Source: Escallonia rubra
Taxonomy: Eukaryota > Streptophyta > Magnoliopsida > Escalloniales > Escalloniaceae
Direction of reading: 5' to 3'
NCBI GenBank assembly: GCA_033065855.1
Contig: JAVXUO010001311.1
Coordinates: 372,001 to 436,000, forward strand
Length of the DNA stretch: 64,000 nucleotides
The number at the start of each line of letters is the position of its first letter. Position 1 is the first letter of the stretch. The translations under genes and the position numbers were made by a program. Positions 36,110-59,789 of this stretch are shown piece after piece. The notes beneath the pieces were generated by a model. That model had not been told where the DNA came from, searched no databases, and saw only the letters and a program-made list of their open reading frames with translations.

Positions 36110-39100
36110 ATGACCACCACACCAATGGCCTCTGCAATTTCTAGTTCTACTCCTACATATTTGTGTCAGTCATCTTCACCTTTCACAGTTAAAAAACCCA
36201 CCCTCTACGTATTATCTACTTCGTCAACTATAAACCCCAGCACCCCAAGTTTTCATTTCCATTCACGGATTCCTCAACTGTGTTTCACTCCTCTTTCCTC
36301 ATGGAACGGTCTGAGGCACGCTGGCATGCCAATTTCACAAAATTTCATGAAATTAGGTACTTTTGTCATCTGGGTCTGTGCTATTATTGTCACACACACA
36401 AGTCATTTTGGCACCTTTTGGGTTAAAGTTTGAAGTGGTGGCGTTGTAGAAAGGAAGAGAAAATGTAAAGGCAAGGTTGTGTTTGCATCACTGTTTGGGG
36501 TTGGGGCTCCCGAAGCTCTGGTGATTGGAGTGGTGGCCTTGCTGGTTTTCGGTCCGAAAGGTCTTGCTGAGGTGAGAAGTTTTGCTTGTAATTCAAAGCT
36601 GCAGAGAGCATTTGCCTGAATTATTAATTTACTTCATAGCTTTTTTAAATATGAATGCTCAGCTTTTCGTATGCTTTTGTAACATTTGTAGCACATTTAG
36701 AAGTACTATAGGTAGCATATTGTAATTTCACATTACTAAATGCGCGCACACAAGCACACACCTGCACAGTCTTGACCGGGCAACTGCCTATGTACAGAAC
36801 GGTACCCGGGTTATTCGCTGATCTTTCTACAATTTTGTTGTTAATGGTGAGCATGAATGAAAATGTCTAAAACATTCATGAAATAAAATAAAATATGGAT
36901 AAATCAAATATGTCTAAAACATACATGAATATATGGATGAGTAAAGTAGTCATTCCAAATAATCATCTAGGGGTAATATAATGAACTACCAATAAGCCAT
37001 ATGGCTGGTATTAATTAGGAAGTGTTTTGATTGTATTTTCTAAGAGTGCTCAAGGACGATTTGAATTCTGCATCACTCTATTTAAAGGGTTGTCGAGGCT
37101 CATGAAGCATGGAGATTTCCTAGCAGCTATCCAGGACGCGCAGTTGGAGAAAAAATATGATGGATGTCCTTGGGATTATAGTGAGTAGAGCAAGATACCC
37201 CCTGCCAATGGTATCACCCTCAAGGAGATCAACGACACGGGCATGTAATGTCAAGTTGATACTATAGGAGATGCATGTTTGGAACCTCAGCACCGTGCAA
37301 GACCTGTCCTATGTGATTGGTGTTGGAAATTTTTTCATAATTGAATCCTACCTTATTGAACTTTGTACTACAAGGTTTAATGTCCAAAAGAATCAATCAG
37401 ATTGGTTGATTGGTCAGAGAAATATAAAGTCTCTAAGGTGGGCATTCAATAAGGTTGAAAAAGGGTTATAATGTGGGTTCCCACGTTATTTGGGAAATGG
37501 AAAGGTTAAAGGTATTTAAGTGGCCATGTGACATACCATATTGTTCTAGAAACACATGGTATGCATGGCCATGCACTTGCACATGTGCTGTGCACCGCAC
37601 ACGCAGGCCAGGCGCGGGCGACGGCGTAAAGGTGCTATTGGCGCTTTTGGGCGCACTTCGCATGTGCGCATCCTCGCTAGGAGCCCTTGCCCCTCGCCCA
37701 GCCTAAACTTTTTGCGACAAATTCAGCCTGTGAACCAAAATAGGTGTGAATTTTAGACTGAAACAGTGTGACTGTTGGACAATGGCAATGGGGAGGGGGA
37801 TGCGGGTTTCATAAGATCCGCACCCGCACCCGCCCCGCCACACCAAACATGTTACTCTGCCCCGCCATCGGGTTTTGAGATGACGATACCAGCCCCGATC
37901 CGTTAGGTTTTTTGGTAATCCGCCCCTGACCCGACCCGACCCGTACTACCATAGTAGTATTTCCCTCTTCTGTTTCATTTGTCCCAAGAGAACCTTCCAA
38001 ACTGAGAGACATTTCTTGTGCCAAGATTCATATCCTGCTTTGAAACCACAGACGAGGATATCTTTCCGTGATGGTGGTGATGATGTCATTGCTAAGACCC
38101 GTCTTTTGCGAGTGGCTGACTTGTTGTGCCGCAGATTCATTCGTTGATGATGAAACCCCTACTCAACATTGCATCGCTGTAGTCCCTTTGCTCTGCCTTG
38201 TATTATAGTTGTTCCGATCTAGTTCTGATCTGCCCGCTGCTATTAATGAACAGGCTTGCTCACCCATCAATCCTAGAAAGGTAATTGGGTCAGGTGACGA
38301 TTGGTTGCTGGGGAAGAAGAGGCAATGGGGAGAAAGATGAAAAGGAACCGGCAATTAGTAGCTTGGGATTGGCGAACGGCGACATGGCTGTGGACATGGT
38401 TGGGGGTGCGGCGGCTTAAGGAGAAAAGTTGGAGAAAGATGAAAAAGGTTAGGCTTTTCCAACAGTTTATACATAAGGATTGACGGCTCAGATTAAATCT
38501 TGATGAGGATATTTAGGGGAGCGAGTCGGGTCGGATAGCAGGGCGAATGCACCTAAAACCATACCCGCTGCGGGTTATAAAGATAAATACCAAACCCGAT
38601 CTATGACCCGGTCATAGTTAAAAAAATCCGCTCCTATAGGAGCGGGCGGGGCGGATCTCCGTCGCGTACGGGTCCAATTGCCATCCCTAGTGTTGGTAAA
38701 TTAAATAGATTTTCAATTCTGTTTAAATTCAAAAGGCACTTGTTCATGGTGTCTTTTAGTTCAAAGCTTGCATCTGTTTGCTGTGTCTGCAGATTGTGAC
38801 TGTTAAATGACACCTGCAGAGTGCAGAGTCATTTAACTGTTACAACCGATTGCGCCTGTTCAAGGCACCTGTTGGTGTCTAACTGTCTATAAATAGGGCT
38901 GATGGCAGACTAATTTCTCACTTCGAATTTCTCTCTTGCTCTCTCTCTCTCTCAAATATCTGTCTATTGATTGCAATGTGCTGTAATCAATAGTGTTTCG
39001 CCTGTTTTATCTTGGGAGGCATATTTGCTATTACCCTACGCAGATTATAAGGGAACAAATAGTGTCTTAAGGAAAGAGTGCATAGCATTTGACTCATGCT

Positions 39101-42100
39101 ACTTTTCTGTCTCCATTACTGTCTTATTTTTACACCAACTTAAGACAATATTTGGCTACAAAGGAGACTACTGCAAAGATGCCTGTGATCAACGACATCT
39201 CCAAATTGGCGAAGTTCGATAGCTCGTTTTTTATGCGTTGGAAGAGCAAGATGTACTTCTTCCTTGCTACATTGAAGATAGCCTATTTGCTCACCTTTCC
39301 AAAGCCCGTTGTGCAAGAAAAAGCAAAAGTGGGAGGAGGATGATGTCTACTGCAAAGGATAGATTTTGGGAGGGCTGTCCGACACTCTTTATGATGTGTA
39401 CGCAATCAAGTATGGCAACAACACTGCGAAGGAATTATGGGATGATCTATACGCAAGTACAAGACGGAGGACGCCGGGAACAAAGTAAGTTATTTGACTT
39501 CCGCATGGTAGATAACAAGTCAGTTATTGTGCAAATACATGAATTGCCAATGATAATGAATTTGATCATATCCGAGGGCCACTCTCTTGACGAGTCTTTT
39601 TTAAGTGTCTCAAATTATTTCTAAATTGCCTTTCACTTGGAAAGGATGTCGCAAAGAGTTGAACAAAAGAAGGATGCCATGACCATGCAAGAATTGGTCA
39701 AGTACATCCAAGTTGAAGAGAATTCTCGCAACTTTTGGATAGGCTTGAGTTGGAAGACCACAAGTCCGCCAAGGCTCTTGTAGTAGACCATGGCTCTTCT
39801 AGTGGCTCTAAGCGTAAGCTTGATGGTCAAGGTTCTGCTTCAACCAAAGGGCATGACAAGCCTTAAAAGGCTTGTTGGAAGTGTGGAAAAAGTGACTACT
39901 TCAAGAAGGATTGCAGAGTGGCTAAGAGGCAGAAAAAGGACCATCTAATGTGGTTGACAACGAGGACTTCGTTGCGGTGGTTTCTGAAGCCAATGTGTTG
40001 GCGGAAGATGAGGAGTGATGGGTGGTTTCTCGTGCAACCAAGCACATTGCAAAGAACATAAATCTGTTCAAGGACCTCGAGCCGGTTGCGGAAAGACATC
40101 GACTCTACATGGGAAACTCATCAACGGCTAAGGTCATGGGCAAGGAAACTGTGGTGCTGTATCTCTCCTCCGGCAATAAGCTAACCTTAAAGGATGTGCT
40201 ATTCATTCCCGATGTTAAGAAGAATCTTGTGTCTGTTAGCTTACTTAACCAGTTTGGGTTTAAGATTCTTTTTGAGTCAGATAGTGTTATTCTGACTAAG
40301 GGAGGGAATTATGTTGGCAAGGGCTATGTAACCAATGGCTTGTATAAGCTTACTACAAGTAATAAAGATTCTAAATTTGCATATCTTGCTGTTTCTTTTG
40401 ATTTATGGCATTCTAGACTAGGTGATGTTAACTATAAACGCATGAGAAGTATGGTTAACTTAGGTTTAATACCTCAGCATGCTTCACCTAGTTTAGAGAA
40501 ATATTCAGTTTGCATAAAATCTAAAATTGCCAAGAAACCCTTCAAAGGGGTTGATAGGAAATACAATTGTTAGAATTAGTACATTCGGACTTATGTGAGA
40601 TGGAAGGTCACCTAACAAGGGGTGCTAAAAGATATTTCATAATGTATATAGATGATTGTTCACATTATACTTACCCATACCTTCTAAGGACTAAAAATGA
40701 AGCTTTGGATAAATTTAAAGTTTACAAAGCGCAAGATTAAAATTTTGCAGTTGGATAGGGGAGGTGAATACCTTTCCTTTAATGATCTATTTGAAACTTG
40801 GGGTATCATTCCTTATAGCCCACAACAAAATTATGTAGTCGAGAGGAAAAATAGGACTTTGCGAGAAATGGTTAATACATTGTTACTTACTTCTGATTTG
40901 CTTAAGAATTTGTGGGGGGAAGCACTCATGACTTCTACGTATGTACTTAATCGTATACCCCACAAAGTTACTAATGTCACACCCTATGAGATATAGAAGA
41001 AGAGAAAACCTTCTCTTGGACACCTTAAGGTGTGGGGGTGTAGGTCATTAGTTATGCTAACTGATCTGAGACCCGAATTGGGGGAAAAGGCGATTGAATG
41101 TGTCTCCATAGGCTATGCTCAACATAGCAAAGCTTATAGATTCCTAACCATGGAATCAACATAATCTATTAGCCAAAATATTATTTTGGAATCTAGAGAT
41201 GCAGAATTCTTTGAGAATTCTTTCTCTAGAAAACGGAAACAAGAAGACGAGTAAGGATAGAAAAATCCTATGGTCTAAATTTCTACCGATTTATAGTTGA
41301 GGGAGGTAGAAATGAAGGTGATTACTCTCATATATGTAACGTAGAACATGACCCTTTAACATATCAAGAAGCCATAACTTCTCGAGATTTTGCTCTATGG
41401 CAAGAAGCTATGATTGATGAAATGGAGTCAATAATGTCAAACCAAATTTGGGTATTGACTGATCTGCCACCAAGATTTAAACCAATAGGCTGCAAATGGA
41501 TTTTCAAAGCGAAAGCTTAAGCCAGACGAATCCGTAGATAAATATAAAGCTAGACTTGTAGCCAAGGGTTTTAAACAAAAGGAAGAGATTGACTATTTTG
41601 ACACCTATGCTCCGGTAGCTAGAATTAGCACTGTAAGATTATTATTTGCTTTATCATGTATTAACCAACTTATTATACACCAAATGGATGTCAAGACTGC
41701 TTTTCTAAATGGTGTTTTAGATGAGGTGGTGTACATGGAACAACCGGAAGGTTTTGTACTAAAGGGTCAAGAAACAAAGGTTTGTAAGCTTATCAAATTT
41801 TTGTACGGCCTAAAACAAGCTCCTAAGCAGTGGCATGAACGATTTGATCAAGTTGTTCTTTCTCATGGATTTAGAATAAACGAATGTGATAAATGCGTTT
41901 ATTCTAAGTTTGATAATGGACGAGGTGTGATAATATGTTTGTATGTTGATGATATGTTAATCTTTGGTACTGATTTGGAGATTTTGTTGGAAACCAAATC
42001 ATTTCTTCATTGTTTGATATGAAGGGTATGGTGGAAGCTAATGTTATTTTGCGATTAGATCCTCTGGTTCAATTTCTTTGTCACAGTCTCATTATATTGA

Positions 42101-45100
42101 GAAAATATTAAAGAAATTTAAGCACGAGAATTGTGCCCCGGTTACTACCCCATATGACCTTCTATCAAGTTAAGGGCAAATGAAGGGAAATGTGTTTCCC
42201 AACTAGAGTATTCTAGTGTCATTGACAACTTGATGTTTGTCATGCAATGTACCCCACTAGATATAGCCTTTGCGGTTGGTGTTTTGAGTAGGTTTACTCA
42301 TAACCCCGGGTAAGTCCATTGGAAAGCGGTGTTTAGGGCACTTAAGTACCTTAAGGGAACAATGAACTATGCATTAACTTACAAGGAATTTCCTGCTATA
42401 TTAGAAAGGCGCACAGATGCAAACTGGATCACGGACTCAGATGAAACAAAGTCCACAAGTGGTTGGATATTTACCATAGGTAGAGGTGATATTTCTTGGG
42501 GTTCCAAGAAGCAAACTTTGATTTCACATTTGACCATGGAGTCCGAGTTTATTGCTTTGGCAATGGCAGTCAAGGAGGCGGAATGGCTAAGAGACCTCTT
42601 AATAGAGATTCTTCTATGGCCTAAGCCAATGCTATTTCTATATTCTGGGATGACGAGACAGCGTTATCGCGGGCATATAGTAAGGTTTATAATGGGAAGT
42701 CTAGACATATAAGTCTTAGACATAGTTATGAGAGAGAACAACTAAGCAAAGGAGTTGTCACTATTGTCTATGCAAAGTCCAAAGGAAATTTGGCGGATCC
42801 CTTTACAAAAGGCCTAGGCAAGGATGTAATATGGCAGACTTCCAGGGAGATGGGTTTGAAGCTCATGAAATAAGAGAGGTAACATGAATGTGGAAACCAA
42901 CTAGACACTAGAATAACCTCTAGTCTTCTAGTTCAATGGAAAAACACGTATTTATAACCAAATATGCACTAAAAGATGAAGATTTTGATCTTCATGTCAT
43001 CTCAAGGTAGTGCATACTTGTATGGAGAACAAGAGGAGGGTGGGGATTATTCCCTTAATAAATCTATGTCCTTAAAGGAGGGTGCATGTCATTCAAGTGT
43101 ACCTTATTAGATTTACCTATATAAGTGCAGAAGTGGGGCCGCTTCTACGAGATTTGAGCTTGTCTCTATGGCACTTATGAAAATCCTAAGATGTAGCACA
43201 AGGCCGTAAGTGTGCAGGTACTTGGAAAAATGGTTGGGAAGTTCTACACATAGTAGTGATGATCAATCACTAAGGATTCTTAGTTCAAGGCTAAGGCTAC
43301 TTTGAATTCTGATTGACTTCGTTGCTATATGATAAAGGTTCAAGTTGAAAGACATCTTTATCTTAGTAGGGCCTACCAAATGATAGAGAGAGGTACATCT
43401 TCTAAATAAGGAAATATGATAAAAATCCAATTTTGGAAAATTTGGGGGAAATTGTTGGAAAATTTTCATAATTGGACCCTACCTTATTGAACTTTGTCCT
43501 ACAAGGTTAATGTCCAAAAAGAATCAATCAATTTGATTGATTGGTTAGAGAGATATAAAGTCTCTGAGGTGGACATTTAATAAGGTTGAAAAAGGGTCAT
43601 AATGTGGGCTCCCACATTACTTGGAAATATATAGGTTAAGGGTATTTAAGTGGCCATGTGACATACCATATTATTCTAGAAACACATGGTATGCATGGCC
43701 ATGCACTCGCACGTGCGGTGCACCGCACATGCGCGGCCGCGCTCGCCAGCGGTCGCGGTGCGGGCGACGGCGTAAAGGTGCTATTGGCACTTTTAGGCGC
43801 ACTTTGCACTTCGCATGTGCCCAGCCTTAACTTTTTACCACAAATTCAGCCTGTGAACTAGAATAGATGTGAATTTTGGACTGAAAGAGTGTGACTGTTG
43901 GTAAATTAAACAAAATTTCAGTTCTGTTTAAATTCAAAAGGCACCTGTTCATGGTGTCTTTAGTTCAAAGCTTGCACCTGTTTGTTGTATCTGCAGATTG
44001 TGACTGTTAAATGACACTTGCAGAGTCATTTAATTGTTACAACCGATTGCACCTGTTCAAGGCACCTGTTGGTGTCTAACTGTCTATAAATAGGGCTGAT
44101 GGCAGACTCATTTCTCACTTCGAATTTCTCTTTTACTCTCTCAAATTTCTGTCTATTGATTGCAATCTGCTGTAATCAATAGTGTTTCGCCTGTTTTATC
44201 TTGGGAGGCATAATTGCTGCTACCTATGAAGCACCGGTGCGACACTTCGGGTGAAGCACTAGCACCGGGTAGCATCAGGTGCGGGTGCGCGTCGGGGTCC
44301 AACATTTTTTTTTTAATATCTTAAATACCACGTGCAGCTCGGGTGCGTATCTGACCTGTGAGCACCGGCAAATCTGTAAGCACCGACAAATTTGTGACCA
44401 CCGGCGACTACCGGCAACTCTAGCTACCACTGGGGACCACCGGCAAAGAATCTGAGAAGAGAGAGGAGACAGGAGAGAAGAAGTAGAAGCAGGAGCAGGA
44501 GAAGGACTTACCGGCGACGGCGTGCGGCGTGCTGGTGCTTCCAGAGAAGAAGAAGAAAAATTCGTCGATGTTATCTATGTTGGCTGGATGCAGATGACTT
44601 TTGACTTTTTTTGATAGCTAGCATCCATAAGTTTGTTATTTTATTTAAGCACCCAATTGTTAAGTTGTTACATAAATCAACCCCAGTACTTTAAAGAAAT
44701 AAAAGTGATATCACATAAAAACTTTATTCGTTTCAACTATACAATTTTATTGTTTATAAACAACCCATTAAACTTAACAAATTCTCACTAATTTGGTTGA
44801 TACCTTTAAATTTTACGAAAGAACCCCATTTAACTTAAAAACTCACTACTTTGTTTGGAATATTAATAGCTTTTTACATTTAACAAACACGTATGTTATG
44901 ATTATTAGGATTCAAATTGTTTAGAAATTTAATACTAAGTGTACATAATTTAAAAAAATGTTTATAATATTTGCCGTATCCCCGCCGCACCTGTATCCTA
45001 ATTTTGAAAAAAATGCCATATCCGCCCTCGTGTCCGTGCTTCATAGGCTGCTACCCTGCGCAGATTATAAGGGAACAAATATTGTCTTAAGGAAAGAGTG

Positions 45101-48100
45101 CCTAGCATTCGACTCAGGCTACTTTTCAGTCTCCATCACTTTCTTATTTTTCTAACAATTGGCTTACACATGTGGCCTGTCGACATGGGGACTTGCTTTG
45201 GTTGGACTTAGATGTGGCAATGTGAAATTATGACCATATGACAGTTGTATTAACACTTCATAGAAGTTTGATTATTGAGTGGATTTGTAGAGCAGCTTGG
45301 CCTGGTCCCAATCCCGCTGCAAAAATCCACACTCCACCTTAGGACCCTTAGGACCACAATTAGGACTCTACTCTTCAAAGATTTATTCTACCATTGCCTA
45401 AGTGTGTATGAACTTGCTTGGTTTTATGTTGCATGTTATTGTTTCTGGTACTCCATGTCTTTCAATGAACTAATATGCAAGATTCTACCATGGTTTTATG
45501 TGTAATTGTAGGTTAGAGTTGTATTTTGTAAGTTTAAGCTGTGATGTGCATGGAGCATCATGATTTTGCGTCGTCCTACCCCGCCCCCCAAACAACAAAA
45601 AACCCCAAAAAAATCAATAAATGAACAGACAAGTTAAGGATCATCTCCTCGACCATCTCAGTAAAGTCATCTGATCGCAGGTTGCTCGCAATTTAGGCAA
45701 AACTTTGCGCGAATTTCAACCTACAATAAGAGAACTTCAGGTAAGTACTATGTAGCTTTGCTTTGAACTGCTTTTTCTTATTATCTTTGAAGGAAAAGCT
45801 ATTTTATTGTGAATGCTGCTTTTTCCCTTCTCTGCAGGATGTTTCAAGGGAGTTCAAGAGCACGCTTGAAAGAGAGATTGGTCTTGACGACATCCAAAAT
45901 CCAACGCAAGGCAATTACAGCTCCAAAACAACCAGTACTACCCCAAGCCCTTCCCCAACTTCAGGCTCTGCTGATTCCGAAGTGACGGTTGATACCAGTG
46001 AGTATGACATATGTACAACGTGTTTTCTCTTTTGTTACTATTTGGAAAGGGGAATGTAGAAGGCATTGGATTTGTACAACACCGTCTTTCCCTTCATCTT
46101 GCATTCACAAATGAGGCTCTGGGTCATAAGGCATCACGTGCAAAAAATTATGCTACACAGTGTGCCCTGGTCCACATACATTGTGGTACTTGTTGGCAAA
46201 CTTCAGTATCTAAAACATGAAAGCTTTAACACAATCACAACTGACGGTTTCTAACCAGGGTGGCATAACCAGTTCTTGGGGTGTTGAGATTGGTTGGGAG
46301 GCAAAGTATGGTGCTAGTTTTTGCAAGTATAGCTCTCTTTTTTCCTTCAGAAGACAATAGAATGTAAGTCCTGTTACAGTTCTTGCGTATGTCTTATCCA
46401 TGATCAACACCAACTTAATGACCAATATTTACGGAAGTTGTTCTATTAAAATCTTTTTCTCGTAATGCTATTCACTTGAACATCAATCAAATCATACGTG
46501 TTTATCAGAAGTTTGAGTGCAAATACGCTAAACTACCTTCAAGAATCCTGTGATGAATATTTTATGCTAAATATCATTTTTGGTTTTCAACCATACTCGC
46601 ATAGGAATAATGGAATACTATTTTTTTCCATCTTGAGAATGAAAAGAAAGAAAGAAGAGAGATCTAATGATCTATGCCAATACAAAAGCAATCCCAATAG
46701 TCATAACCTATTTATACACACACACACACAAATATACACATTTGTAGGTTCCTGTCATGTTAACATCTTAACGATATGGGGCTGGTGTGTGTGTGTGTGT
46801 GTGGGGGGGGGGGGGGGGAGGTGAGTGCAGAATGTGAACATGTCATGAACTTCTGTTTATTTGGTTGTGGCCAGGAATGGTCCTCCTTAGTTTAACATAG
46901 CTCCATGGTTGTAGCTAAAGGCTGCGACCCCCCAACCACATTTAGCCACCAATAGTCGTTGCTAAGGCAATACAGGAAACACCTTCACCGAGAAAACCTA
47001 GTAGCACCTTTTTAGCGCACTAAGTTGTTGCCACTAAGCTACAACCGTTCCTGTGCCTAACCCTGCAGAGAAAAGCAAAATACTGCAGGCTCCAACCATG
47101 CAAGTCCTGACCTCCTAGGCATTTTGTTGCATCATGTTTAAATAGTTGGTGGCTATCTTTCTGAATTGAATCTGGAGAAAACTACGCAACAAAAAATCTT
47201 GCTGCCAAAGGCAGCAAAATGACTTCAAAGTTGCCATGTGTCTCCGTTCCACAATTCAAAATCCCAAACCTTATACTAGTTTAATTTTGGCCCCTACAGC
47301 TTCACTACCACACCACACCGCAGCCCACCACCACCAGCACCGTCACCTTCACCACACACCATAACCGCAGCCCACCACCAGACACCACCACTATCGAGAC
47401 CTTTACCAGAAAACCCACCCCCGTCTCCTTCACCACACAACCCACCATCACCACCGCCCACCACCTTCACATCTTCCTCCACTCAATAGTGCACGCGCGC
47501 GGTCTTACACGCACATGCGCTGCGCACACATGCACAGCACGTTTGTGTCCCAGATCTATCTTGGTATCTTGGCCGTCGGAACCAACCTCCATGCCATCGC
47601 TGCCTGTTGCCATCTCCAGCTCGTCAGATTTGCACCGTCACGCTGCCGCCCTTCGCCATCTCCATCTCCAGCCCATCCCCCCTTTTCCGGTAGCGACACA
47701 TGATGCTGCAATGTGGCGGGCATGTGTATTCATAAAGAAAACTGTGCTCCTCTCCCCTTCTGCTGGAGAGGAGCACAGTTCCGGCTAAAGATGATGCCGC
47801 AATGTGGCGGGGTTTGGTGGGGGTGTTGATGGGATTGAGGTGTGCATTCATAAATTCTAAAGCTTGGAGTTTGTGATGTAAATGTCTCCTTTAAAAGTGA
47901 CATAAGAAATGCACACATGGAACTTGTTGAGGCCATTTTGCTGCCTTTGGCAGCAACATGGTTTGTTTCCAATTTTTCCCCTTGAATCTGTACATGGAAG
48001 TCCTTCCTTTGGTATTAGGCCGCGTGTAAATGTAAGATTATATGTATCTTATTCCATAGAGAAGTCAAAATGTTGTGAACAGTCTAGTGAACATATTCTT

Positions 48101-48634
48101 AGCTGGACCAGCTAAGAGCAAAAGCAAGGAAATACGAATGTGATTCTCGTAGTTGTTGTTTCCTTTTTATTGTTAGATATGTCATTTTTGTTTATAAGAG
48201 GCCTAAAACAACAAGTAACGTGCTCAGCTTATCTTTCATTTCATCAGTTCAGTTTGGTTTCATTTGGTGCAAATCTTATCAGCAATCTTAGCCTCTTGTA
48301 AAGTGTTGTGAGTTTTCTGAACTAGCAGATGGTTTGTCATCACCAAAAAAAGCATATTCCAGTGAAAACTACCTGAAGATTACGGAAGAGCAGCTGAAAG
48401 CATCTGCCGCCGTGCAGCAAAAATCAGTTGACTCTCCTGGAGAAGGCCAGTTGGAATCCCAAGCTCAGTCTCAAGGTCTGTCAATTTTAATGTCTCTTGG
48501 CAATTCACTCCCCTTCCCCTAACCCCTTCCCCTGGGGCCCAATGTTTACTCATATGCAACTGCTATTAGAAACCCTTCAAGAAGCTGCAGCAGGGATGCC
48601 TCCACCCCAGAAGCCGCCCAAAAGCGAGACGTGA
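36110..48634 (+). CDS. TATB: Chloroplast twin-arginine translocase subunit TatB (HCF106)
   Basis: Thylakoid membrane component of the cpTat (delta-pH) pathway that, with TatC, forms the receptor for twin-arginine precursors (family knowledge). Six exons: 36110-36356, 36450-36571, 45681-45740, 45838-45997, 48329-48475, 48570-48634; total 801 nt, 266 residues. Exon 1 is a Ser/Thr-rich transit peptide. Exon 2 encodes ASLFGVGAPEALVIGVV, the single membrane helix with its conserved Glu, and FGPKGLAE at the hinge. Exon 3 is the amphipathic helix (ARNLGKTLREFQPTIRELQ), exon 4 DVSREFKSTLEREIGLDD, exon 5 the KAYSSENYLKITEEQLK segment, exon 6 a short Pro-rich tail. Every junction is GT-AG and keeps phase. 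The start could also be the ATG at 36125. Intron 2 is 9.1 kb because of an inserted Copia element. The last exon is the least certain, as the tail is poorly conserved. Confidence 0.92.
37779..38690. mobile_element. TAGGGATGGCAAT-type element inside the 5' LTR
   Basis: The 3' LTR has continuous sequence (GACTGTTGGTAAATT) where the 5' LTR is split, so the insert is exact: TGTTGG at 37773-37778 is repeated at 38691-38696. It starts ACAATGGCAATGGGG and ends ATTGCCATCCCTAG, so GGCAAT is inverted at the ends, and it has subterminal GGGCGGG/CCCGCACCC modules. The middle (about 37960-38280) is less repetitive, with splice-like AGAAAG|GTAATT near its end, and could be captured host sequence. Non-autonomous. 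Confidence 0.75.
38888..38895 (+). promoter_or_regulatory. TATA box of the 5' LTR
   Basis: TATAAATA within GTCTATAAATAGGGC, conserved at the same place in the 3' LTR (44085-44092). This is the expected position of an LTR promoter. Confidence 0.6.
39179..39990 (+). pseudogene. Copia gag remnant
   Basis: The frame opens ATGCCTGTGATCAACGAC (39179) and encodes nucleocapsid-type sequence, but it shifts frame near 39340 and again near 39450-39620. The zinc knuckle is readable at about 39872-39913 as CWKCGKSDYFKKDC; the usual zinc-binding His of CX2CX4HX4C is replaced by Tyr. The product would not be functional as it stands. Confidence 0.82.
40019..42890 (+). pseudogene. Copia pol remnant: protease, integrase, RT, RNase H
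   Basis: Protease region starts WVVSRATKHIAKN at about 40020; the catalytic Asp expected in DSGAT is missing. An open stretch follows to 40573 (integrase zinc-binding part, FDLWHSRLGDVNYKRM). The integrase core is readable (VHSDLCEMEG from about 40580) but broken by stops; a segment at 40697-40996 is open. Reverse transcriptase at 41684-42022 has MDVKTAFLNG, LYGLKQAPKQWHERF and the active-site YVDDM. RNase H-like sequence (TDANWITD, TSGWIF, TMESEFIAL) is at 42329-42712. Multiple stops and frameshifts make this a dead copy. Confidence 0.88.
43453..45157 (+). repeat. 3' LTR of the Copia element, interrupted
   Basis: Starts TGTTGGAAAATTTTC after the polypurine tract and ends TCTAACA before the ATTGG duplication. 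It is split by an 823-bp element (44224-45046); without it the LTR is about 880 bp. TATAAATA lies at 44085-44092. Many scattered substitutions and small indels against the 5' LTR suggest an old insertion. Confidence 0.9.
44224..45046. mobile_element. hAT-like element inside the 3' LTR
   Basis: Ends are CTATGAAGCAC (44224) and GTGCTTCATAG (45046), perfect 11-bp inverted repeats, flanked by the 8-bp duplication GCTGCTAC (44216-44223 and 45047-45054). The 5' LTR shows the unoccupied state (GCTATTACCCTACGC), confirming the boundaries. An 8-bp duplication is typical of hAT elements (family knowledge). At 823 bp with no transposase it is non-autonomous. Confidence 0.8.
46720..46820. repeat. CA, GT and poly-G microsatellites in TatB intron 4
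   Basis: (CA)n at about 46717-46729, then (GT)n at 46785-46802 passing directly into a run of about 15 G. Simple-sequence DNA, no coding role. Confidence 0.8.
47199..47956. mobile_element. Inverted-repeat DNA element, family copy 2, in TatB intron 4
   Basis: Each end carries TTGCTGCCAAAGGCAGCAA or its complement (47199-47217, 47938-47956), and similarity continues inward (AAAATG..CTTCAA..AGTT.CCATGTGT), giving inverted termini of about 45 bp. Each terminal 19-mer is itself nearly palindromic. The interior has CCACCA-type tracts and GC-rich sequence shared with the element at 11731-12366, in opposite orientation. No transposase is present. Confidence 0.72.
47740..47780. repeat. Perfect 16-bp hairpin inside the element
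   Basis: AACTGTGCTCCTCTCC (47740-47755) and GGAGAGGAGCACAGTT (47765-47780) are exact complements separated by 9 bases. The corresponding part of the element at 11731-12366 lacks a perfect hairpin, so it arose or was kept only in this copy. Confidence 0.85.
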
Positions 48635-49133
48635 ACCCTCAGAAGAGATCTATTGCTAAGAAGATAAAAAAAGGTTCAAGATTTCATTAATTTTCGATTA
48701 AAATATTGGTTACTATTCCCATAGAAATTTAGAAGAATAGTATTTAAAATGCCTGTCTAGCATTCAGCCATGAGATAGTAAACGGTATTTCCTGCACTCA
48801 GGATATAATATGTTTTTGTATGATAAAGAGTAGAAGTATATTGGAATTTTGCCTGTTCAATGATCCTTTTGTCAGTGATATGCACGTTAAGGGAAGACTT
48901 CATTGTGCACTTTTTACTAAATTTTTGAACTTTTCCGTTTTCTTATTTGGAGATGTTGATTTTCTACTACGAAGGATAAAAATTCAGAACGATTATGAGA
49001 GGGGCATACTTCTCGACACAAACAACACACCCCACCCAGCATACCCCAAACAACCCAAAGTTACAAAATACCCCACCAAGCTAACCTATTCCAAATACCA
49101 TAACTGACTTACAGTGCACGTGTGCAAGTGAAA

Positions 49134-49940
49134 TCAAACATCGGCAAAGGTTAATGAAAAGTATCCCAGCTGGTCATGAGAACATAACATGCAGCTCAGT
49201 AGTAAATTCCTACGGAATATGCCAGTTTCCTGGGTGTTGGATGATGGTGGGAGAATGAGTTTCACGAGTGTGTTTCGGGCTTTGGTGTGGTTGAGAAAAG
49301 GTAGGGACGAGATGGCTTTAGACCCACTGCAGATCTGTGCCATGATCTCGTTAATAGCATCTGGGATTGCGTGATTGAATGCTCATCCTATTCCAAGTCC
49401 ATCCTTGAGCTTGGTAAGTTGTGGGCATCACACATTAGGGTAACCAAGAATGTGAAGCTCAAAGTGTAATACCGAAGAATAATTATCTAGATGTAAAGAG
49501 GAAAATGTCTAAAAAGTTTGGGTAAGCAAAGTGTTACCCGGACGGCAAACAATGGCCGGCCACCTTTAAGATGCCGTTGTATGGCACCAACTCCTTCACC
49601 TTGACCATGCCATCCTCGTCCAGTAGATCCGCAGTTTTGGTCCCCTCCACAGCTGCCATCACCACCCGTCGCCGCCTCCATAACATGAAACCCCACCCTC
49701 ATCTTTGCTTCCTCAGCCAGTTGATAAAATTCTTCCAAAGCTACCCCAAGTCCATTGTTTGGTTTCTCAACCATATCCTCAAAGTTGACCCCTTTATATT
49801 TTAACACCTTTGGTTCTAGTAAAAGGCTACACAGGGAAGGCCAAATGTTACCGTCACTCCCTTTTTCCTAATGGCTTCTTGGGCATGACAAGGGTTGTGC
49901 TGAGGATTTTGGCCGTCCAACATTTCTTCCTGCTGCTTTT
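49134..49940 (-). pseudogene. Pseudogene copy of the DCR-type BAHD acyltransferase
   Basis: Duplicate of the intact gene at 51796-54425. Exon 1 homology runs about 49940 to 49538 and keeps a donor-like GTAACA, but the start codon is lost and the frame is shifted. The intron is only about 117 bp, against 1283 bp in the intact copy. The acceptor AG has become AA (49421-49420, context CCCACAA instead of CCCACAG). Exon 2 then reads LTKLKDGLGIG followed by a stop, where the intact copy has DGLVMGLAF. The HAILD active-site motif is HAIPD. Homology fades around 49200, so the acceptor-substrate and DFGWG half is deleted. It cannot make an enzyme. Confidence 0.9.
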
Positions 49941-51289
49941 ACTACTTCATCTATCGCGCTTGTTCATCCTGAATCATTCATGTTTAAGATGGTAAATGCA
50001 TTTAGGTGATACACTTGAAAGAGTAACTCATCTCGTGAAAGGTAACAACTGCCTGTCATGATTCTGAATCCATACAAAAATGATCAATTGAATGGCTGGG
50101 ACTCACTAAGCATGTGATGGACAATGAATATTCTTTCTAAAACTGAACATGTCGAACAATGAAAAATTCAATGATAACCGATTTGAGATTTGAAAAAGCA
50201 TTTGAAACTTTATGATGCTTGTTCGGAACTTAGTAAATGTGGAATTTTACATGAAATATTGTATTGTAATACACATTTGAACAATTTGGGAGGTGATTGT
50301 AATTTCAGCTACTAGTTATGCCAGTAGGTGTTTTTGGTACTCTGGTAGATAAGGGATCTTTATATCCAAGTTATATTTCTATATAAGTCGAAGTAATCTC
50401 AATATTTTTTTTATCATTAAAAAGTAATCAGTGTTAAGGCTCGTTGCGGCTCCATTATTCACTTGATGCACACAAAAGTAAAAGGTAGGAGTGTATAGGC
50501 AATAGATGTAGATTGTATACTAAGGACTGATGTTAGTAGCGAACTTCAATATACATTCACTAAATCTTTTCCTCCTTTAAGAATCATGGAGTAAAGTATC
50601 CAAAAGAACGTATATATTAAGAAACCTCTAGCTGACCAACTTCCCTTGGATTCCCTCATAGACCATCCTCTTTGGTAAATATGAACCAATGGAATTATTA
50701 GTATGACTTCTGCATGTCTAGCATGCAGGTCCTGTGACTCTAATGCTTGTGCAGAACATCCTATACCTCTTGGCGATCCTTCCCTTTGCCAATTCTGAAA
50801 GGAACCATGCTTCTGCCAAAGTTGAGACTCTATGCCATATAAGCAAGCTTCAGAAATATTATTCACCAAAACCAAAATTCAGCAATTACAAGGGAAAATG
50901 TTTAGAACTCTCTGCATAGAGGAAATTCTAGTGCAAACTCTAAATAATCAACCAACTAGTGGACTCGCACCTTAAACAATTAGTAGCAGTTTGTGCGCTA
51001 TCTGATTTGCTTAGCACTTTGTTAGTTGAAATCCTGAAGAAGCTCGTCGCTTGAGGCTTCCTTTAATTCCTGATAAGTAGAAAGCCAGGGTTTGAGCCAT
51101 TTGGACGAGAAGAAGTTGCTCAGCAGAAAGAGAATTATCAAGAAAAGAATGGCATTTACAAAATTCTGAACTGATAAAACAATGATAAATTGTCAGTATG
51201 GTTCTGGTTGTTACTTGTTTCCTTTCTCAATGTTTGCAAATTGTTTAAATATTTCTAATATCACTCTGCTTATCATTTCTTAACCTGTT

Positions 51290-51458
51290 TAACATTGTGG
51301 TTTCATTCAATACAAAATTGTATCAGCAACTTTTGTCCCTTACGGAGCAGTTTAGATATCCTAAACTTGCCATCACCAAATAGTGTGTGCTTCAGAAGCT
51401 GCTACCCAACAGCAGAAACCAGCCGATTCTTGTGGAGAAACCAAACTTGGGTCTCAAG
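51290..51458 (+). pseudogene. TatB exon 5 remnant from segmental duplication
   Basis: 51369-51458 aligns with TatB exon 5: it keeps CCATCACCAAA, CAGCAGAAACCAG and GTCTCAAGGT, ending at the equivalent donor. The acceptor region CTAGCAG is lost, and about 45 bp covering the SSENYLKITEEQL codons are deleted. Upstream intron sequence (GGTTTCATT..ATCAGCAA) also matches that before exon 5 (48255-48290). Exon 6-like sequence is not seen after it. Confidence 0.82.
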
Positions 51459-51795
51459 GTTTGTAAGGAAATATCTTCTCAAATGCTCATGAAATTTCGC
51501 TCTAGTTGAGCATTTAGTGGAAGAAAATCTTCATGGACTGTTCAGTTTTAAACTGGCAATTGTAAATTACGTCCTGCAATTATTAGAACTCTAACACAGC
51601 ATTATATTAGAAATCAGGCAGTGAAGATTCATACATGTAAAACCCTGCATACCAGCTTTATGTCCCAAATTCTAGAGATCAAACCTTACAATGGATTGCA
51701 TAATGGATAATCATGTTTCAACTACTATAAAAACCAAACATAGCAAATACAAAAGATACACCAAACAGAGTCTCCACATAACACCCTCTCCTTAC

Positions 51796-54425
51796 TTAAG
51801 GCTCCATAAGAAACTCCTTGTCCTTCTCCAACTTCTCCATAGCATTAGCCTCCAAACTTATCTCCACATCAATGCCTCTGCCTCCGCCCTTGGCTTGATA
51901 CAAATACACCATCCCATCAAACCTATTGTTTGACCCACTCCTTACTGTCTCCGGCTTCCCCCACCCAAAATCCACATCGTAAACCTTAAACCGCGGAGAG
52001 CTCCCAACTGCCACGCAGTTAACCCCAGCATCCTTGTACTGAAAGATCTTCGGGTTGCTCTCCCATTCAGTGTTTCTTGCGTTAATGACTTTGGAGTCAT
52101 GTGCGTCAATGGCCCCTTGTATCGATGCCGCACCGAACTCTGGTGGGTGGGCCAGCAGCAACCCTGCTGCAGTCACGGTGAATATGGCCTGAATCAGGTT
52201 GCCGAAGTAGCTTTCAGGCATTGGAGGGTCAACCCTTTTCCTGCAGTCAGCAAAGACAGTGAAGACAGTGTAGTCTTCAGGCTTGAGCTGGCGAGCACGT
52301 GTGACTGCATGCCACACGTGCGTGGATAGCGATTGGAATGTGGAGAATGGTTTCGAGCCGTCCGATGGATTTGCGTTGACTTTTGACTTGACCTGATCAA
52401 TTGCTGACTCTGAGAAGCGGAAGATCTTCTCCCGCAGCTGTGGCTCCGCCTTGGTGACGTTACCGTTGGCTGACGCGCCGTTTTCTTGAGCGTCGGATGG
52501 CGGTGAGAGAATGAGCTTCACTCGAGTGTTTCGCGCTTTGGTGCGCTCAAGGAAGGGTGGGACCGAGACAGAGTTGGCCCCGCTGCAGATCTGGGCCCAT
52601 TCGCTCATGAAGTGCCACGTGGAAGTGCCGTCTAAGATGGCATGATTGAATGCCAGTCCCATCACCAATCCATCCTTGAGCTTGGTAAGCTGTGGGCATC
52701 AACAAGATCATGGTTAGCGGGCCAAGTAATCAATCAACCGTGATGAATATAATGGCTCCGGCAACAACATCATGTTATTATACCTTTCACTTTCCTTTCT
52801 GAGACAACTTGAGGTTGATATATTTTTTTGTTTTTGTGTCTTGTTGAATAGGATCCGCAGCTGTTGGCTAAAAGATATTTAACGACAAAAGACTGAAAAA
52901 ATTGGTCGCTATAAGGTTATTTGCCGCTTTTCAAGCGACAAATCTGAAAAAGTCAATAGCAACCAATAACACACATGCACTCATGTTGCCATATTCTAAC
53001 GGGAAGAATGTGAGGGGATCCGGATCAGGGTTTTTTTTGTCTGCTCCAACCACCTTTTTTTTTTCTTTTATTTATCATGACTTGTCTTTTGTGCACAACT
53101 CCTTGTACATTCTAAGGTCTTAGTACTAGGTATTCATGTGGCCTGTTTGCATAAATAGAACGAGCTTAGTTGTTCGTAGAAGATAATGGTTCTATTTAGT
53201 ACAGTTGCTAGGTACCAAACAGGGCCTTATAAGGTACAAAAATAAAGTCTCATAAATAAGATACCGAGTTCATGAGGTGTATAGCTCACAAATTAGGTGG
53301 TGAAAGAAGCCTCTTAAAAGAGTGAGGGCCCAGACGCAGTTTTTGGTTGTCCAAAAAATGATTCGACCATAATATAATGAAAATTACCAGCAATAGCATG
53401 TCCTATCTATATAGCTGCTAATATCGACTCTTCCAAAACTTCCCATATTCTTAGCCAAAATGACAAGATATGATGGTTTCGGAAACTGATTCTTGTCCAC
53501 TCCCCCATCTTCTTAGGCAGTGCTCTTGAAAAGGAAGGAAAACCAAACATGGAGCCTATAAATTTTGCAGGGTAAAGCGTTGTTATCCTCCGTATAATGT
53601 CGTTAATCTTAAGAGCAGAATTGTCGCTAAAACGTTATGAAAATGTAGCACTTGACAATGTGGTTGAAGTGTTAAAACACCCATCCTCAAGAAATGACCA
53701 ACAATTCTGACCTTACTTTGCATAATTTTAAGTTTCGAGAGAATTATATATCCGTTGCTTCTCATGCTACCTAGATAAGTATTTTTCTTACACGCTAAAT
53801 TTTTTCTGGTTCTTGCTTGTTCCATTTGAGCTCCACGATTTTTCATTTGAGCATCAAGTGTGCCGCTAGAAGTTCTTGAATTGTCACTTAAAGAATTTCT
53901 AGCAACATTCAAATACGGGGCTCAATTCGGAGAAAAGTTGGTAAGAATATCTGATTTAAAGCAAAGAGCTACCTGTATGGCGAGCAGTGGGCGGTGAAGC
54001 CCTTCCAAGTTCAAGATGCCATTGTAAGGCAGCAACTCCTTCAACTTGGTTGTGCCCTCCTCGTCCAACAAATCGGCAATTTCGGTCCCCTCCGCCGCCG
54101 CCGTCACCACCTCCACTCCCTCCATATCATCATCGTACACCACCTTGAATACCCCATCATCGTCTTTGTCCAACTTCCCAGCCAATTGATGAAACTCTTC
54201 CAGAACTATCCCAAGCCCATCCTTAAGCTTTTCAACCATGACCTCAAACTCAACGCCTTTGTAGATTAACACCTTCTGGTTGTAGTAAAAGGCTACATAG
54301 GGAAGGTCAAATGTGACAAGCTGACACTCTTTCCTTCCTAGTGGCTTATTGGGCATGACATGTGTTGTGCTGAGGATTTTGGCCTTCAGCATTTGCTCTT
54401 GCTGCTTAACAACTTCATCAGCCAT
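51796..54425 (-). CDS. DCR: BAHD acyltransferase, DCR type (cutin formation)
   Basis: BAHD-family acyl-CoA-dependent acyltransferase. Arabidopsis DCR (At5g23940) is needed for incorporating dihydroxy fatty acid into cutin and acts in the cytosol (family knowledge). Two exons: 54425-53973 (151 codons, donor CAG|GTAGCT) and 52689-51796 (298 codons, acceptor CCCACAG), 448 residues. Exon 1 has the N-terminal GRKECQLVTFDLPYVAFYYN stretch and ends HRPLLAIQ. Exon 2 has the catalytic HAILDG (HXXXD) and, near the C-terminus, the structural DFGWG. It is convergent with TatB and has a dead duplicate at 49134-49940. The 1.3-kb intron is longer than in that copy. Length is slightly below what I remember for Arabidopsis DCR. 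Confidence 0.93.
52690..53972 (-). other. Intron of the DCR gene
   Basis: AT-rich, 1283 bp. A minus-strand open frame at 53583-53912 has no domain I recognise. The duplicate's intron is only about 117 bp, so more than 1 kb was either gained here or lost there; terminal inverted repeats that would mark an insertion are not evident. Confidence 0.6.
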
Positions 54426-54429
54426 GGTT

Positions 54430-55330
54430 GTTGATGCTGGGTTGCTCAGGCAATGGGAGAAGGAGCAAACATATATGCTTCACTGGCTTGGGTAAATGCT
54501 TTTAGGTGATGTGCATATAAGAGCAATTCATTTCATGCAGTTGGGGTGGCATTTATGAGCTTCATGAGTGCAGTTGTGATCCATTAATTACTTGCTGGTC
54601 TGGGTAGAGGTTGAGTAAAGTTGATCCTCTCTCTTTCCCATTATTGTTCTTGTTAGTTTTATCTTCTAGTTACCTATTCCTAAACAAAATTATACTATGT
54701 GGAGAGAATGGGATTACACGTTGCTTGTCATAAGGGGGACTATAATCCTCTCCAAGTCTTTTGCCCAAAACACCAAAAAAGTGCAGAGGTGGCTTTCAAT
54801 CGCCATCTACACATTTCTGGTCTCATTATCGATCTTAGTTAGCCCTTAATGCAAGAGTGGCCTCCTTTTAGTTAGCCCTTAATGCAAAAATGGCCTCTTT
54901 TGACAGGACATCGAAGAAAAACGAGGTCGCGGCAATTCATTAATTTTATGATTGTGGCGTTCAAGTCTTGCGAAAATGACTTCTTGAGGTGGACTTTATC
55001 ACATTACTACCTATGTCTTCATCCTTACTGCTCCGTTTTTTATTTTTGGTCGCTTTACTTACAAGAGAAACCTGCATGATATTTTTTCTGCATAATTCTC
55101 ATACTTGATAGTTTAATGTGAATGCATTACACTTTCGTTCAAACTACAAAATAGGGAATTACCGATTCTCTTTTCCGTTTTCTGTTTCCTTAGAAAATGT
55201 ACAATTTCCCCTTGTTTGGATGGTCTTAGCACTTCAAGATCTTATTTCAATTTCATTTCATCTTTAAGGTTTCTGGGCATAGCATAGAGTTGCAAGGGTA
55301 AGAATGGTTCTTATATTCTTCAAGAAGATC
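54430..55330. other. Spacer between DCR and UPF0496 genes
   Basis: It contains the DCR upstream region; about 130 bp of it (54430-54560) match the region beyond the pseudogene exon 1 (49940-50075), so the duplication extends into the promoter. CAAAATGGCCTC-like and TTAGCCCTTAATGCAA phrases are locally repeated (54838-54895). No gene seen. Confidence 0.55.
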
Positions 55331-56374
55331 TTATGTGGGTTGACCCGGATCCACAAGCTCTTTCACTACTAGGTTTCTAGCTCTATTTATGGTCATGAAA
55401 CACAAGTACAGATGCTCCTCTAACTCGTCAAGTTGTTGGCTGAAGCTGGAATCATTCTGCTTCAGCTGGCGCGCTACTTCAAAACTTGCTTGGAGCCGAT
55501 CGTCTCTTCTCCCCAGCCAGAACTTGACCATTGCTCGCATATGCTTCAGCTCATCGTCTAGCCGAGCCACTTGACGACTGATCGTGTCCAAGTCCCTGCT
55601 CAATGTATAAGTCCCTTTGGCAGCTGCATCGAGTTGAGCCGTTAGCCTAGCCAACCTCTTTTTGGAAAACAAATCGAGCGAAGCCACTACAACACCTGGC
55701 GCGGCCACTAGCAGCGCTAGGGCATGCGTTACGGCGATTACTGTTAGCGAAGCCGTTAGAGCCACTAGCGAGATGGCCGAGACACATCTCAGCTTATTGA
55801 CCAATCGGAGCCTTGCTCGGGCCTTGTCCCGGCTTGACTCGAGCCGTTTGAGCAAACCGAAGCAGCCAACTTGTATGGCTCGGAACTTATGTGGAGACGA
55901 AGTTGATGTGGCAAAGTGGGTGGAGTTGGAGAATTCGGTTAGTCGGGTTAGGATCACGGGTAAATGGTTTACGGGTGGGAACTTCGCAATTTCGAGAAAC
56001 TGTAAGGTGGTTTTTAGAGAGCGATAATTGACACGCATATGGTCAATATCTTTTATCAAAAATCCACATAGGAAAGATGCATTAGATGTTTCAGAAAAGT
56101 AGTCACGCAAGAGGGCGTGGTTGTCGGTTGGGTTTCGGGCCAAAGCTAGGATCCGAATAACAGTAGGTTGATCTGGGTCAAGTAGATGCTCGGTGAAGAG
56201 CCGGTAGGAAGGGAGCCGAGTCGCTGTGGTGGAGCTAACGCCCTTGGATATCTCGGCGTTTTTATTGCTTAATGCAAGAACACGCTTCCAAAAGTCATGG
56301 TAGGATTCAGTTCGAAATGCATTAGCATATTCTTCTCGGAGGTCCAAATCTGTTGAAGTCGTCGGGTCGTCCAT
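55331..56374 (-). CDS. UPF0496 (DUF677) family protein
   Basis: Plant-specific protein of the UPF0496 group (At3g19330/At3g49070 type). Single exon, 347 residues. The N-terminal half contains a conserved helical block (EEYANAFRTESYHDFWKRV, then LFTEHLLDPDQPTV). At about residues 203-233 there is a long hydrophobic stretch (AISLVALTASLTVIAVTHAL, LLVAAPGVVVASL), probably one or two membrane helices. The C-terminal third is predicted coiled-coil (LTAQLDAAAKGTYTLSRDLD, DELKHMRAMV, QLDELEEHLYL). The start at 56374 is the first in-frame ATG of the homologous region. Molecular function is unknown for the family; I infer a membrane-anchored coiled-coil protein. No intron is needed. Confidence 0.85.
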   Translation of the reverse strand: MDDPTTSTDLDLREEYANAFRTESYHDFWKRVLALSNKNAEISKGVSSTTATRLPSYRLFTEHLLDPDQPTVIRILALARNPTDNHALLRDYFSETSNASFLCGFLIKDIDHMRVNYRSLKTTLQFLEIAKFPPVNHLPVILTRLTEFSNSTHFATSTSSPHKFRAIQVGCFGLLKRLESSRDKARARLRLVNKLRCVSAISLVALTASLTVIAVTHALALLVAAPGVVVASLDLFSKKRLARLTAQLDAAAKGTYTLSRDLDTISRQVARLDDELKHMRAMVKFWLGRRDDRLQASFEVARQLKQNDSSFSQQLDELEEHLYLCFMTINRARNLVVKELVDPGQPT

Positions 56375-56883
56375 TTGGGTTGCTACAAAGGCAAAAAGAA
56401 CATCAAAACGAGACTCAGATCGAGAACTCTAATAACAGAGTAAAAAATCAAGTAATGCCACTCGCCGCACTCGATACAACGTAAAATTATTATCCTAAAA
56501 AACAGAGGAACAACTAAGACAAGCACTCGTGTTTTTATTTTTTATATTATAAAATCTATAATCTATATGTCACCCGAAGGCAACAGTACTTTTATGCCAA
56601 GAACAATCTATCTATTTTATTAAGAAGGAAAGACCCAAACAAGGACTTCAATGTACTTCTTGCTGGGGGGTGGGGGTTGGGGGCTGGGCTGTGGGGAAGA
56701 AAGCTACATTTTGGTACGGTGAAAAAGAGAGAATTTATTTCATTGCAGAGTGTTGTGGCCTGTGGGGGATCCCTCACATGCGTGTCCCTCCTCATGATCT
56801 CAAATTATGCAGTTAACTCACTTCAAGCTGTGCCAGCTACTTGGTTGTAACGTATATATCCAACAACTCAATCTAAGACGAGG

Positions 56884-57299: not shown

Positions 57300-58342
57300 G
57301 GGATAATTACGTCATGTGGTTTGGGGTCGTTGCAAAAAAACTCCTCCCGTTACAAAAATTGCAAGAAGACACCTAAGATATTAATTCTGTTGCAAGTTGC
57401 AACCGTTAGAGAAATCGTCCAAATTGACGACGCGTGATATTCACTTTCTTAAAAAATGCGTTTGATAAATTTTAATATATTAAAAAGACTAAATTACCCT
57501 GCTTTTTTTTTTTTCTCTCCCATCCAAGTCCCAAATTCTTCTCCATTCCAATCAAACCCTAACCCTAGCCACCACCTCAACAACCAAAACCCTAGTCGTC
57601 GCCGCCGCCCCCCACCCAGCCTCATCTACCACCGCCGCCGCCTATTTCGGCCACCACCCAGCCCTGCTGTAGCTGCCACTGCCGCTAGTGCCTTCATCAA
57701 CTGGAGCCAAGTTCGTCGCCACCACTGCGAACTCCACGTCGCCATCCCCGTCATCTCCCCCACCTCTTACATCGCCGCTCACCCCGCGATCAACCCCAGC
57801 GACCTGCGTCGCCGCCAAGCCCACCATCAACCCTATCCAATTGCTCGACCGATTGTGCCGCCATAAACCCTATCCAATTGCGTCGCTGCCACAAGCCTGA
57901 TTCAACAGCCAAAACCCGAGCCTATCCAAAGACCATTCGGGAAAAAAAAAACCCTAAATCTGCAATTAGGATTTCGATCAAGCCCCGTTAGGCGCTCGCC
58001 ACTGGCCCTGTCCACCCACCATGACCAGAGTCGTCGCCCGCCAACCCCGCCATCAACCCCATACTTGCGCCGGCACCACCTTCTTGATCCACCACCACAA
58101 GCTGCCCCTATGCCTCATGCCTAATACCAACACCATACATACAAAAGAAAAACCCTAGATCTACAATTACGTACAATTACAGTTTATATGGAGGAATAAT
58201 TTAGTCATTTTCTTCGTTCCGTTACGGGAGCTGACATGTGTAACACTTTTTTAAGCTTAGGTGTCTTCTTGCAATTTTTGTAACGGGAGGGATTTTTTTT
58301 GCAACGACCCCAAACCACATGGGTATTTTACGCAATTATCCC
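57300..58342. mobile_element. Mutator-like element with about 85-bp terminal inverted repeats
   Basis: Left end GGGATAATTACG (57300) and right end CGCAATTATCCC (58342) begin inverted repeats that run inward about 85 bp, including GTGGTTTGGGGTCGTTGCAA and TGCAAGAAGACACCTAAG. The 9-bp direct duplication TTAATTAAA is exact (57291-57299, 58343-58351). Long inverted ends with a 9-bp duplication define Mutator-like elements (family knowledge). The interior (about 57520-58110) is C-rich with CCGCCGCC tracts and a frame at 57456-57866; this could be captured host sequence, though composition alone could explain it. No transposase. Confidence 0.88.
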
Positions 58343-59780
58343 TTAATTAAAGGGTGTTTGAGATTGATTGTATAGTAGTCAAATTTTGATCCAAAAAAAA
58401 AAAAAAGTAAACTGATTAAAAATCTCTTTCAATGTGTTCAAAGCTCATATCCGGAATTTTCATTTTCTTGAACTCTGATTTAATAGTTGTAAAGAATTAG
58501 GTTTGAGAAAGAAAATTACCAAAATATTCAAACATTAAATGTCCCCTTTAAATTTAAATACATTATATGATAATTTTGTCATACTGAGTCTACTTTCACT
58601 CCTTTTTATCCAAATATCTGCAACAAATTTTGATTTATTACATTTAAAATTGATTAAAGCATATTTTAGAAACTGATTTTGATTTAATTAAAATATACTT
58701 TTAAGAATTAATCTAAAACGACCTTTTAACTGTCAAGAATAATATACTCATATTCCGGTATGCATCGAACATATGAGTTGAAAGTGGTGGTTCAAAGAAA
58801 TGTTTACTCATTCCCTAAACAAGTGCAATTCAGTGTAGATGCCATCCCGACTTGAGTTTCTCTCTTCTTTTCTCTCTTTTTTTTTTAAATTTGGTATGGA
58901 CAATAAATAGTATTTTCGTACTATTTTATCGTTAACTGAGATCATGTCTCCTAATACCAACACCATACATACAAAAGAAAAACCCTAGATCTACAATTAC
59001 GTACAATTACAGTTTATATGGAGGAATAATTTAGTCATTTTCTTCGTTCCGTTACGGGAGCTGACATGTGTAACACTTTTTTAAGCTTAGGTGTCTTCTT
59101 GCAATTTTTGTAACGGGAGGGATTTTTTTTGCAACGACCCCAAACCACATGGGTATTTTACGCAATTATCCCTTAATTAAAGGGTGTTTGAGATTGATTG
59201 TAAAGTAGTCAAATTTTGAAAAAAAAAAAAAAAAAGTAAACTGATTAAAAATCTCTTTCAATGTGTTCAAAGCTGATTATATCCGGAATTTTCATTTTCT
59301 TGAACTCTGATTTTATAGTTTTAAAGAATTAGGTTTGAGAAAGAAAATTACCAAAATATTCAAACATTAAATGTCCCCTTTAAATTTAAATACATTATAT
59401 GATAATTTTGTCATACTGAGTCTACTTTCACTCCTTTTTATCCAAATATCTGCAACAAATTTTGATTTATTACATTTAAAATTGATTAAAGCATATTTTA
59501 GAAACTGATTTTGATTTAATTAAAATATACTTTTAAGAATTAATCTAAAACGACCTTTTAACTGTCAAGAATAATATACTCATATTCCGGTATGCATCGA
59601 ACATATGAGTTGAAAGTGGTGGTTCAAAGAAATGTTTACTCATTCCCTAAACAAGTGCAATTCAGTGTAGATGCCATCCCGACTTGAGTTTCTCTCTTCT
59701 TTTCTCTCTTTTTTTTTTAAATTTGGTATGGACAATAAATAGTATTTTCGTACTATTTTATCGTTAACTGAGATCATGTC
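58120..59780. repeat. Tandem duplication of about 830 bp
   Basis: Copy 1 starts at 58120 and copy 2 at 58950 (CCTAATACCAACACC); both end ATCATGTCTC (58941 and 59772). They differ by only a few small changes: the poly-A length near 58390/59225, GCTCATATCC versus GCTGATTATATCC, and isolated substitutions. The unit begins inside the Mutator-like element and runs past its right end, so the right terminal repeat occurs twice (to 58342 and about 59173). Confidence 0.95.
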
Positions 59781-59789
59781 TCCTTTTTA

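Follow-up and report, generated by a model that had tools for sequence, protein, structure and literature searches.

An old, small duplication of a TatB–acyltransferase segment in Escallonia rubra with one intact-looking copy of each gene

Partial gene duplication leaves an incomplete copy when the duplicated segment ends inside a gene (PMC3449122). A second related system is the mitochondrial gene-order model of tandem duplication with random or nonrandom loss. The locus analysed here lies in a 64,000-nucleotide stretch of Escallonia rubra DNA (the window; assembly GCA_033065855.1, contig JAVXUO010001311.1, positions 372,001 to 436,000). It resembles the first system in that a segment end likewise appears to lie inside a gene, with an incomplete TatB copy as the result. 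With the second it shares tandem copies, each gene having afterwards lost one of its two. A literature search pairing HCF106 with "defective in cuticular ridges" returned no paper.

The duplicated block and its genes

TatB (plus strand) and a BAHD acyltransferase gene of two exons (minus strand) stand tail to tail, and collinear remnants of one segment occur twice, at about 48156-50037 (left) and 51215-54537 (right). The features are as follows.

36110..48634, plus strand: TatB/HCF106 gene, apparently intact (translations and splice-site check); exon 1 from 36110, exon 2 ending at about 36571, exon 3 about 45681-45740, exon 4 from 45838, exon 5 about 48329-48475, exon 6 about 48569-48634 including the stop (limits by eye)
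48156..48510, plus strand: left TatB part of the block, with the end of intron 4, exon 5 and the start of intron 5 (local alignment)
48758..48801, minus strand: possible further exon 2 remnant of the left acyltransferase, matching 52208-52250 (weak, 2 of 200 shuffles as good)
49221..49957, minus strand: left acyltransferase pseudogene (BLAST blocks, alignments, junctions); exon 1 remnant 49957-49538, intron 49537-49419 (119 bp), exon 2 from 49418, first ~200 bp
49972..50037, minus strand: left copy of the DNA directly 5' of the acyltransferase start (score equalled by none of 200 shuffles)
50040..51214, no strand: spacer between the units, 1175 bp (genome search and shuffles)
51215..51502, plus strand: right TatB remnant, comprising a damaged exon 5 and the last part of intron 4 before it (alignment)
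51796..54425, minus strand: intact BAHD acyltransferase of DCR type, 448 aa (frame, splice sites, Pfam); exon 1 54425-53973, intron 53972-52690, exon 2 52689-51796
54467..54537, minus strand: right acyltransferase upstream sequence, with the last detectable base of the block

The exon-joined TatB peptide carries the TatA_B_E domain (PF02416, E 2e-21) followed by a long TatB C-terminal part, and Pfam and PDB together thus assign it to TatB/HCF106. The exon 1 frame and the exon 4 frame, each alone, gave no Pfam family. The best PDB match by E-value is chloroplast TatA, which covers residues 4-51, that is, the domain only; the next is Twin-arginine translocase B over residues 4-164. Intron 2 measures about 9 kb, and a retrotransposon that we take to be Copia-like (37321-45151) appears to sit inside it. 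The element contains integrase-like and reverse-transcriptase-like frames, and its repeats pair 37321-39035 with 43453-44224 and 39032-39131 with 45052-45151. Intron 4 holds an inverted-repeat element at 47174-47981 (arms of 55 nt, 82% complementary), possibly a transposon, which in part resembles 11756-11904.

The right acyltransferase shows PF02458 on both exons and carries HAILDG and DFGWG. HxxxD and DFGWG are the motifs of BAHD acyltransferases, and together with PF02458 they place the protein in that family (Pfam Transferase). The earlier note had named it DCR, presumably correctly (reference AT5G23940). Its PDB matches are headed by Beta ODAP Synthetase and also include EPS1; DCR and EPS1 share one orthogroup according to PMC11449225. 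Intron 1 of this copy is 1283 bp long vs. 119 bp in the left pseudogene. It is essentially single copy, its genome matches being itself and one 73-bp partial match at 80%, so that growth through a common repeat is not demonstrated and a transposon origin is unsupported. A single-exon DUF677 frame (55331-56428, E 3e-15) adjoins the acyltransferase on its upstream side; a cytochrome P450 frame lies at 61584-62675 (PF00067, E 1.5e-21). A tandem pair of about 835 bp with 98.8% identity, at 58120-59784, is either a recent duplication or an assembly duplicate.

That a block with the TatB 3' end and the acyltransferase is present twice, as had been proposed before, is borne out by BLAST and local alignment. 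Three BLAST blocks share order and strand: 49524-49951 vs. 53959-54419 (73% identity, E 3e-75), 49226-49430 vs. 52482-52701 (71%, E 2e-26), and a short one, 49991-50037 vs. 54491-54537 (77%, E 4e-4). The TatB side was missed by BLAST and recovered by local alignment of 48156-48510 with 51215-51502, so the predicted collinear match between the flanks of exon 5 and the right remnant does exist. In this alignment 204 of 271 aligned bases are identical, and its score of 77 was reached by none of 500 dinucleotide shuffles (maximum 52) and by none of 173 size-matched random pairs (maximum 56; 200 pairs were drawn from window positions 1-35000 and 27 dropped as too close together). The signal comes mostly from intron 4, whose portion 48200-48326 scores 57 vs. 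a maximum of 48 in 500 shuffles; exon 5 alone is weak, with a score of 38 that 5 of 500 shuffles reached. Upstream of the acyltransferase, 49972-50037 matches 54467-54537 with a score of 51 vs. a maximum of 40 in 200 shuffles. The block lies where the earlier note had placed it, with starts slightly further upstream, at about 48156 and 51215.

The collinear, same-strand homology includes noncoding DNA, which identifies a proximal segmental duplication at the DNA level. A processed retrocopy is rejected because TatB intron 4 and the acyltransferase upstream DNA match between the copies; retroposition is also rejected by the 119 bp at the intron position of the left acyltransferase, where a GT donor is present. 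The earlier claim of a DNA duplication therefore holds, and, judged from these comparisons, the duplication itself is demonstrated.

Lesions, age and copies elsewhere

Translations, alignments and splice junctions agree with the earlier observation that each gene has one intact-looking copy and that the two lie in opposite units. The left acyltransferase is indeed a pseudogene: GCG stands in place of the ATG start, the splice acceptor reads AA instead of AG, roughly three quarters of exon 2 can no longer be recognised, and HAILDG of the right copy reads HAIPDA. There are 12 alignment gaps against the right copy, namely six missing stretches and four one-base extras in exon 1 and two missing stretches in exon 2, all with a direction not polarised by an outgroup. 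The right TatB was likewise correctly described as a damaged exon 5 remnant, in which the acceptor region and an internal stretch are gone and the donor GT is kept. For exon 6 no right copy is detectable, its score being reached by 93 of 500 and 26 of 200 shuffles.

The divergence between the copies of TatB intron 4 (K2P 0.345, bootstrap 0.245-0.471) overlaps that of acyltransferase third positions (0.437, 0.330-0.571), consistent with a single old event. With a neutral rate of a few substitutions per billion years per site, the duplication would date back roughly tens of millions of years. First and second positions diverge by 0.188 (0.141-0.240). The unconstrained share of the left acyltransferase's history varies with the assumed ratio and the yardstick: on the two yardsticks it is 0.71 (0.45-1.08) or 1.03 (0.64-1.68) at a ratio of 0.05, 0.64 (0.36-1.03) or 0.97 (0.57-1.66) at 0.1, and 0.46 (0.15-0.91) or 0.84 (0.39-1.62) at 0.2. 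Early decay of this copy is favoured, and a functional period is still compatible with these values.

Both proteins were searched against the genome assembly (566 Mb in 3222 contigs) for a second region from a whole-genome duplication that could serve as outgroup, and neither protein revealed one. The acyltransferase gave at least 90 matches (94 of 132 candidates scored), and none of those listed outside the window exceeds 40% identity. TatB gave at least eight, six of them the window's own exons and two at 58% over 43 residues. Among the matches listed there is no other close copy of either protein; since those for TatB do not include the right exon 5 remnant, copies decayed to a similar degree elsewhere may have escaped this search.

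Ends of the duplicated unit and rival explanations

We consider a single old tandem duplication, running from TatB intron 4 to just upstream of the acyltransferase start, the best explanation, with a probability of roughly 0.7. The duplicated segment would have begun inside TatB intron 4 and ended slightly upstream of the acyltransferase start, and its copies would today measure about 1.9 kb (left) and 3.3 kb (right). The resulting array would have run from a full TatB through acyltransferase A and a partial TatB to acyltransferase B. Lacking the first four exons, the partial TatB would not have worked. Acyltransferase A, with little upstream DNA and redundant, would have decayed, and acyltransferase B, keeping the original upstream region, would have stayed intact. 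The right TatB was thus probably truncated at birth. The left acyltransferase was possibly promoter-poor, and a handicap from its short promoter is something that we only infer.

Several comparisons bear on where the unit ends. In the spacer (50040-51214) no homology above chance was found to TatB exons 1-2 (170 of 200 shuffles as good), to exon 3 through deep intron 4 (117 of 200), to deep intron 4 alone (96 of 200) or to 54538-56500 including the DUF677 gene (134 of 200). Acyltransferase upstream DNA beyond about 110 bp has no detectable trace in the left unit. The power of such searches was gauged by decay simulations with planted pieces of acyltransferase upstream DNA and of intron 4. Because the alignment shows 14 gap runs in 180 columns, more than a mild indel rate would give, harsher rates were used; with these settings the simulated medians (73, 61 and 48) bracket the intron-4 score of 65 that the real sequences yield. 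Planted stretches were detected in 56-60 of 60 runs at 500 bp, in 49-59 of 60 at 300 bp and, in the harsher simulations, in 21-44 of 60 at 160 bp. Long duplicated flanks beyond the detected block are, on this modelling, unlikely and short ones possible, which points to one cut within TatB intron 4 and another near the promoter of the acyltransferase; we infer the cut points themselves from where homology stops.

The strongest rival is that both genes were duplicated whole and each lost a different copy, with right TatB exons 1-4 and 6 deleted; we regard it as unlikely. It would lead to the identical end state. Exon 6, expected in the block and undetectable on the right, indicates that loss after the duplication did happen there, and TatB exon 4 aligns marginally with the spacer (a score reached by 5 of 200 shuffles), its best protein-level match falling outside the spacer at 51757-51792. 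However, the spacer contains no detectable exons 1-3 or deeper intron 4, and long stretches of this kind usually stayed visible in the simulations. The earlier proposal of complementary loss of two genes is accordingly upheld for the decay of the acyltransferase and not for a full duplication of TatB: with exons 1-3, exon 6 and deeper intron 4 undetected on the right, TatB was most likely never fully duplicated.

It is improbable that the pattern arose in two unrelated events, the acyltransferase being duplicated proximally in one and the 3' end of TatB copied in the other. Stretches without detectable homology separate the homologous parts, and the units are not in contact, but order and orientation are common to both parts and their divergences overlap. 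The lack of contact also speaks against a simple tandem duplication, the ends of which should abut, yet 1175 bp of single-copy sequence without detectable homology to the flanks intervene; the units are thus proximal and not strictly abutting today. A genome search with the spacer matched only the spacer itself, and a transposon origin for it is unsupported. An error of assembly, or the tandem joining of an allele, is scarcely credible in spite of the 3222 contigs, since the divergence of about 22-28% and the many lesions are far above ordinary allelic variation and the spacer and intron are essentially unique.

Meaning and comparison with known systems

Within the single-duplication reading, we tentatively propose, at a little short of even odds, that the fates of both genes were fixed by the two cut points, the apparent reciprocal loss being a geometric outcome and not two independent decays. 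If so, a unit with one end inside a gene and the other near a promoter leaves only the outer copies complete, and these would have survived because of where the cuts fell. Only the acyltransferase has clearly decayed from a copy holding its coding region; two symmetric decays are not demonstrated.

The locus is an ordinary, old and small tandem duplication, a product of ordinary genome evolution, and offers a divergence-datable example of such a duplication fading in a plant genome. It also calls for caution: one intact copy per unit mimics complementary loss, and unit boundaries alone can yield it. If our reading is true, relatives whose lineages separated later than the duplication should carry identical remnants.

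Set against partial gene duplication (PMC3449122), the locus differs in that one segment here would have given rise to a partial TatB together with a coding-complete neighbour, the acyltransferase. From the mitochondrial gene-order model it differs in being a nuclear plant locus with an unchanged gene order: the intact TatB and the intact acyltransferase still stand tail to tail, about 3 kb apart. Unlike in that model, the cut point itself probably accounts for one of the two losses.
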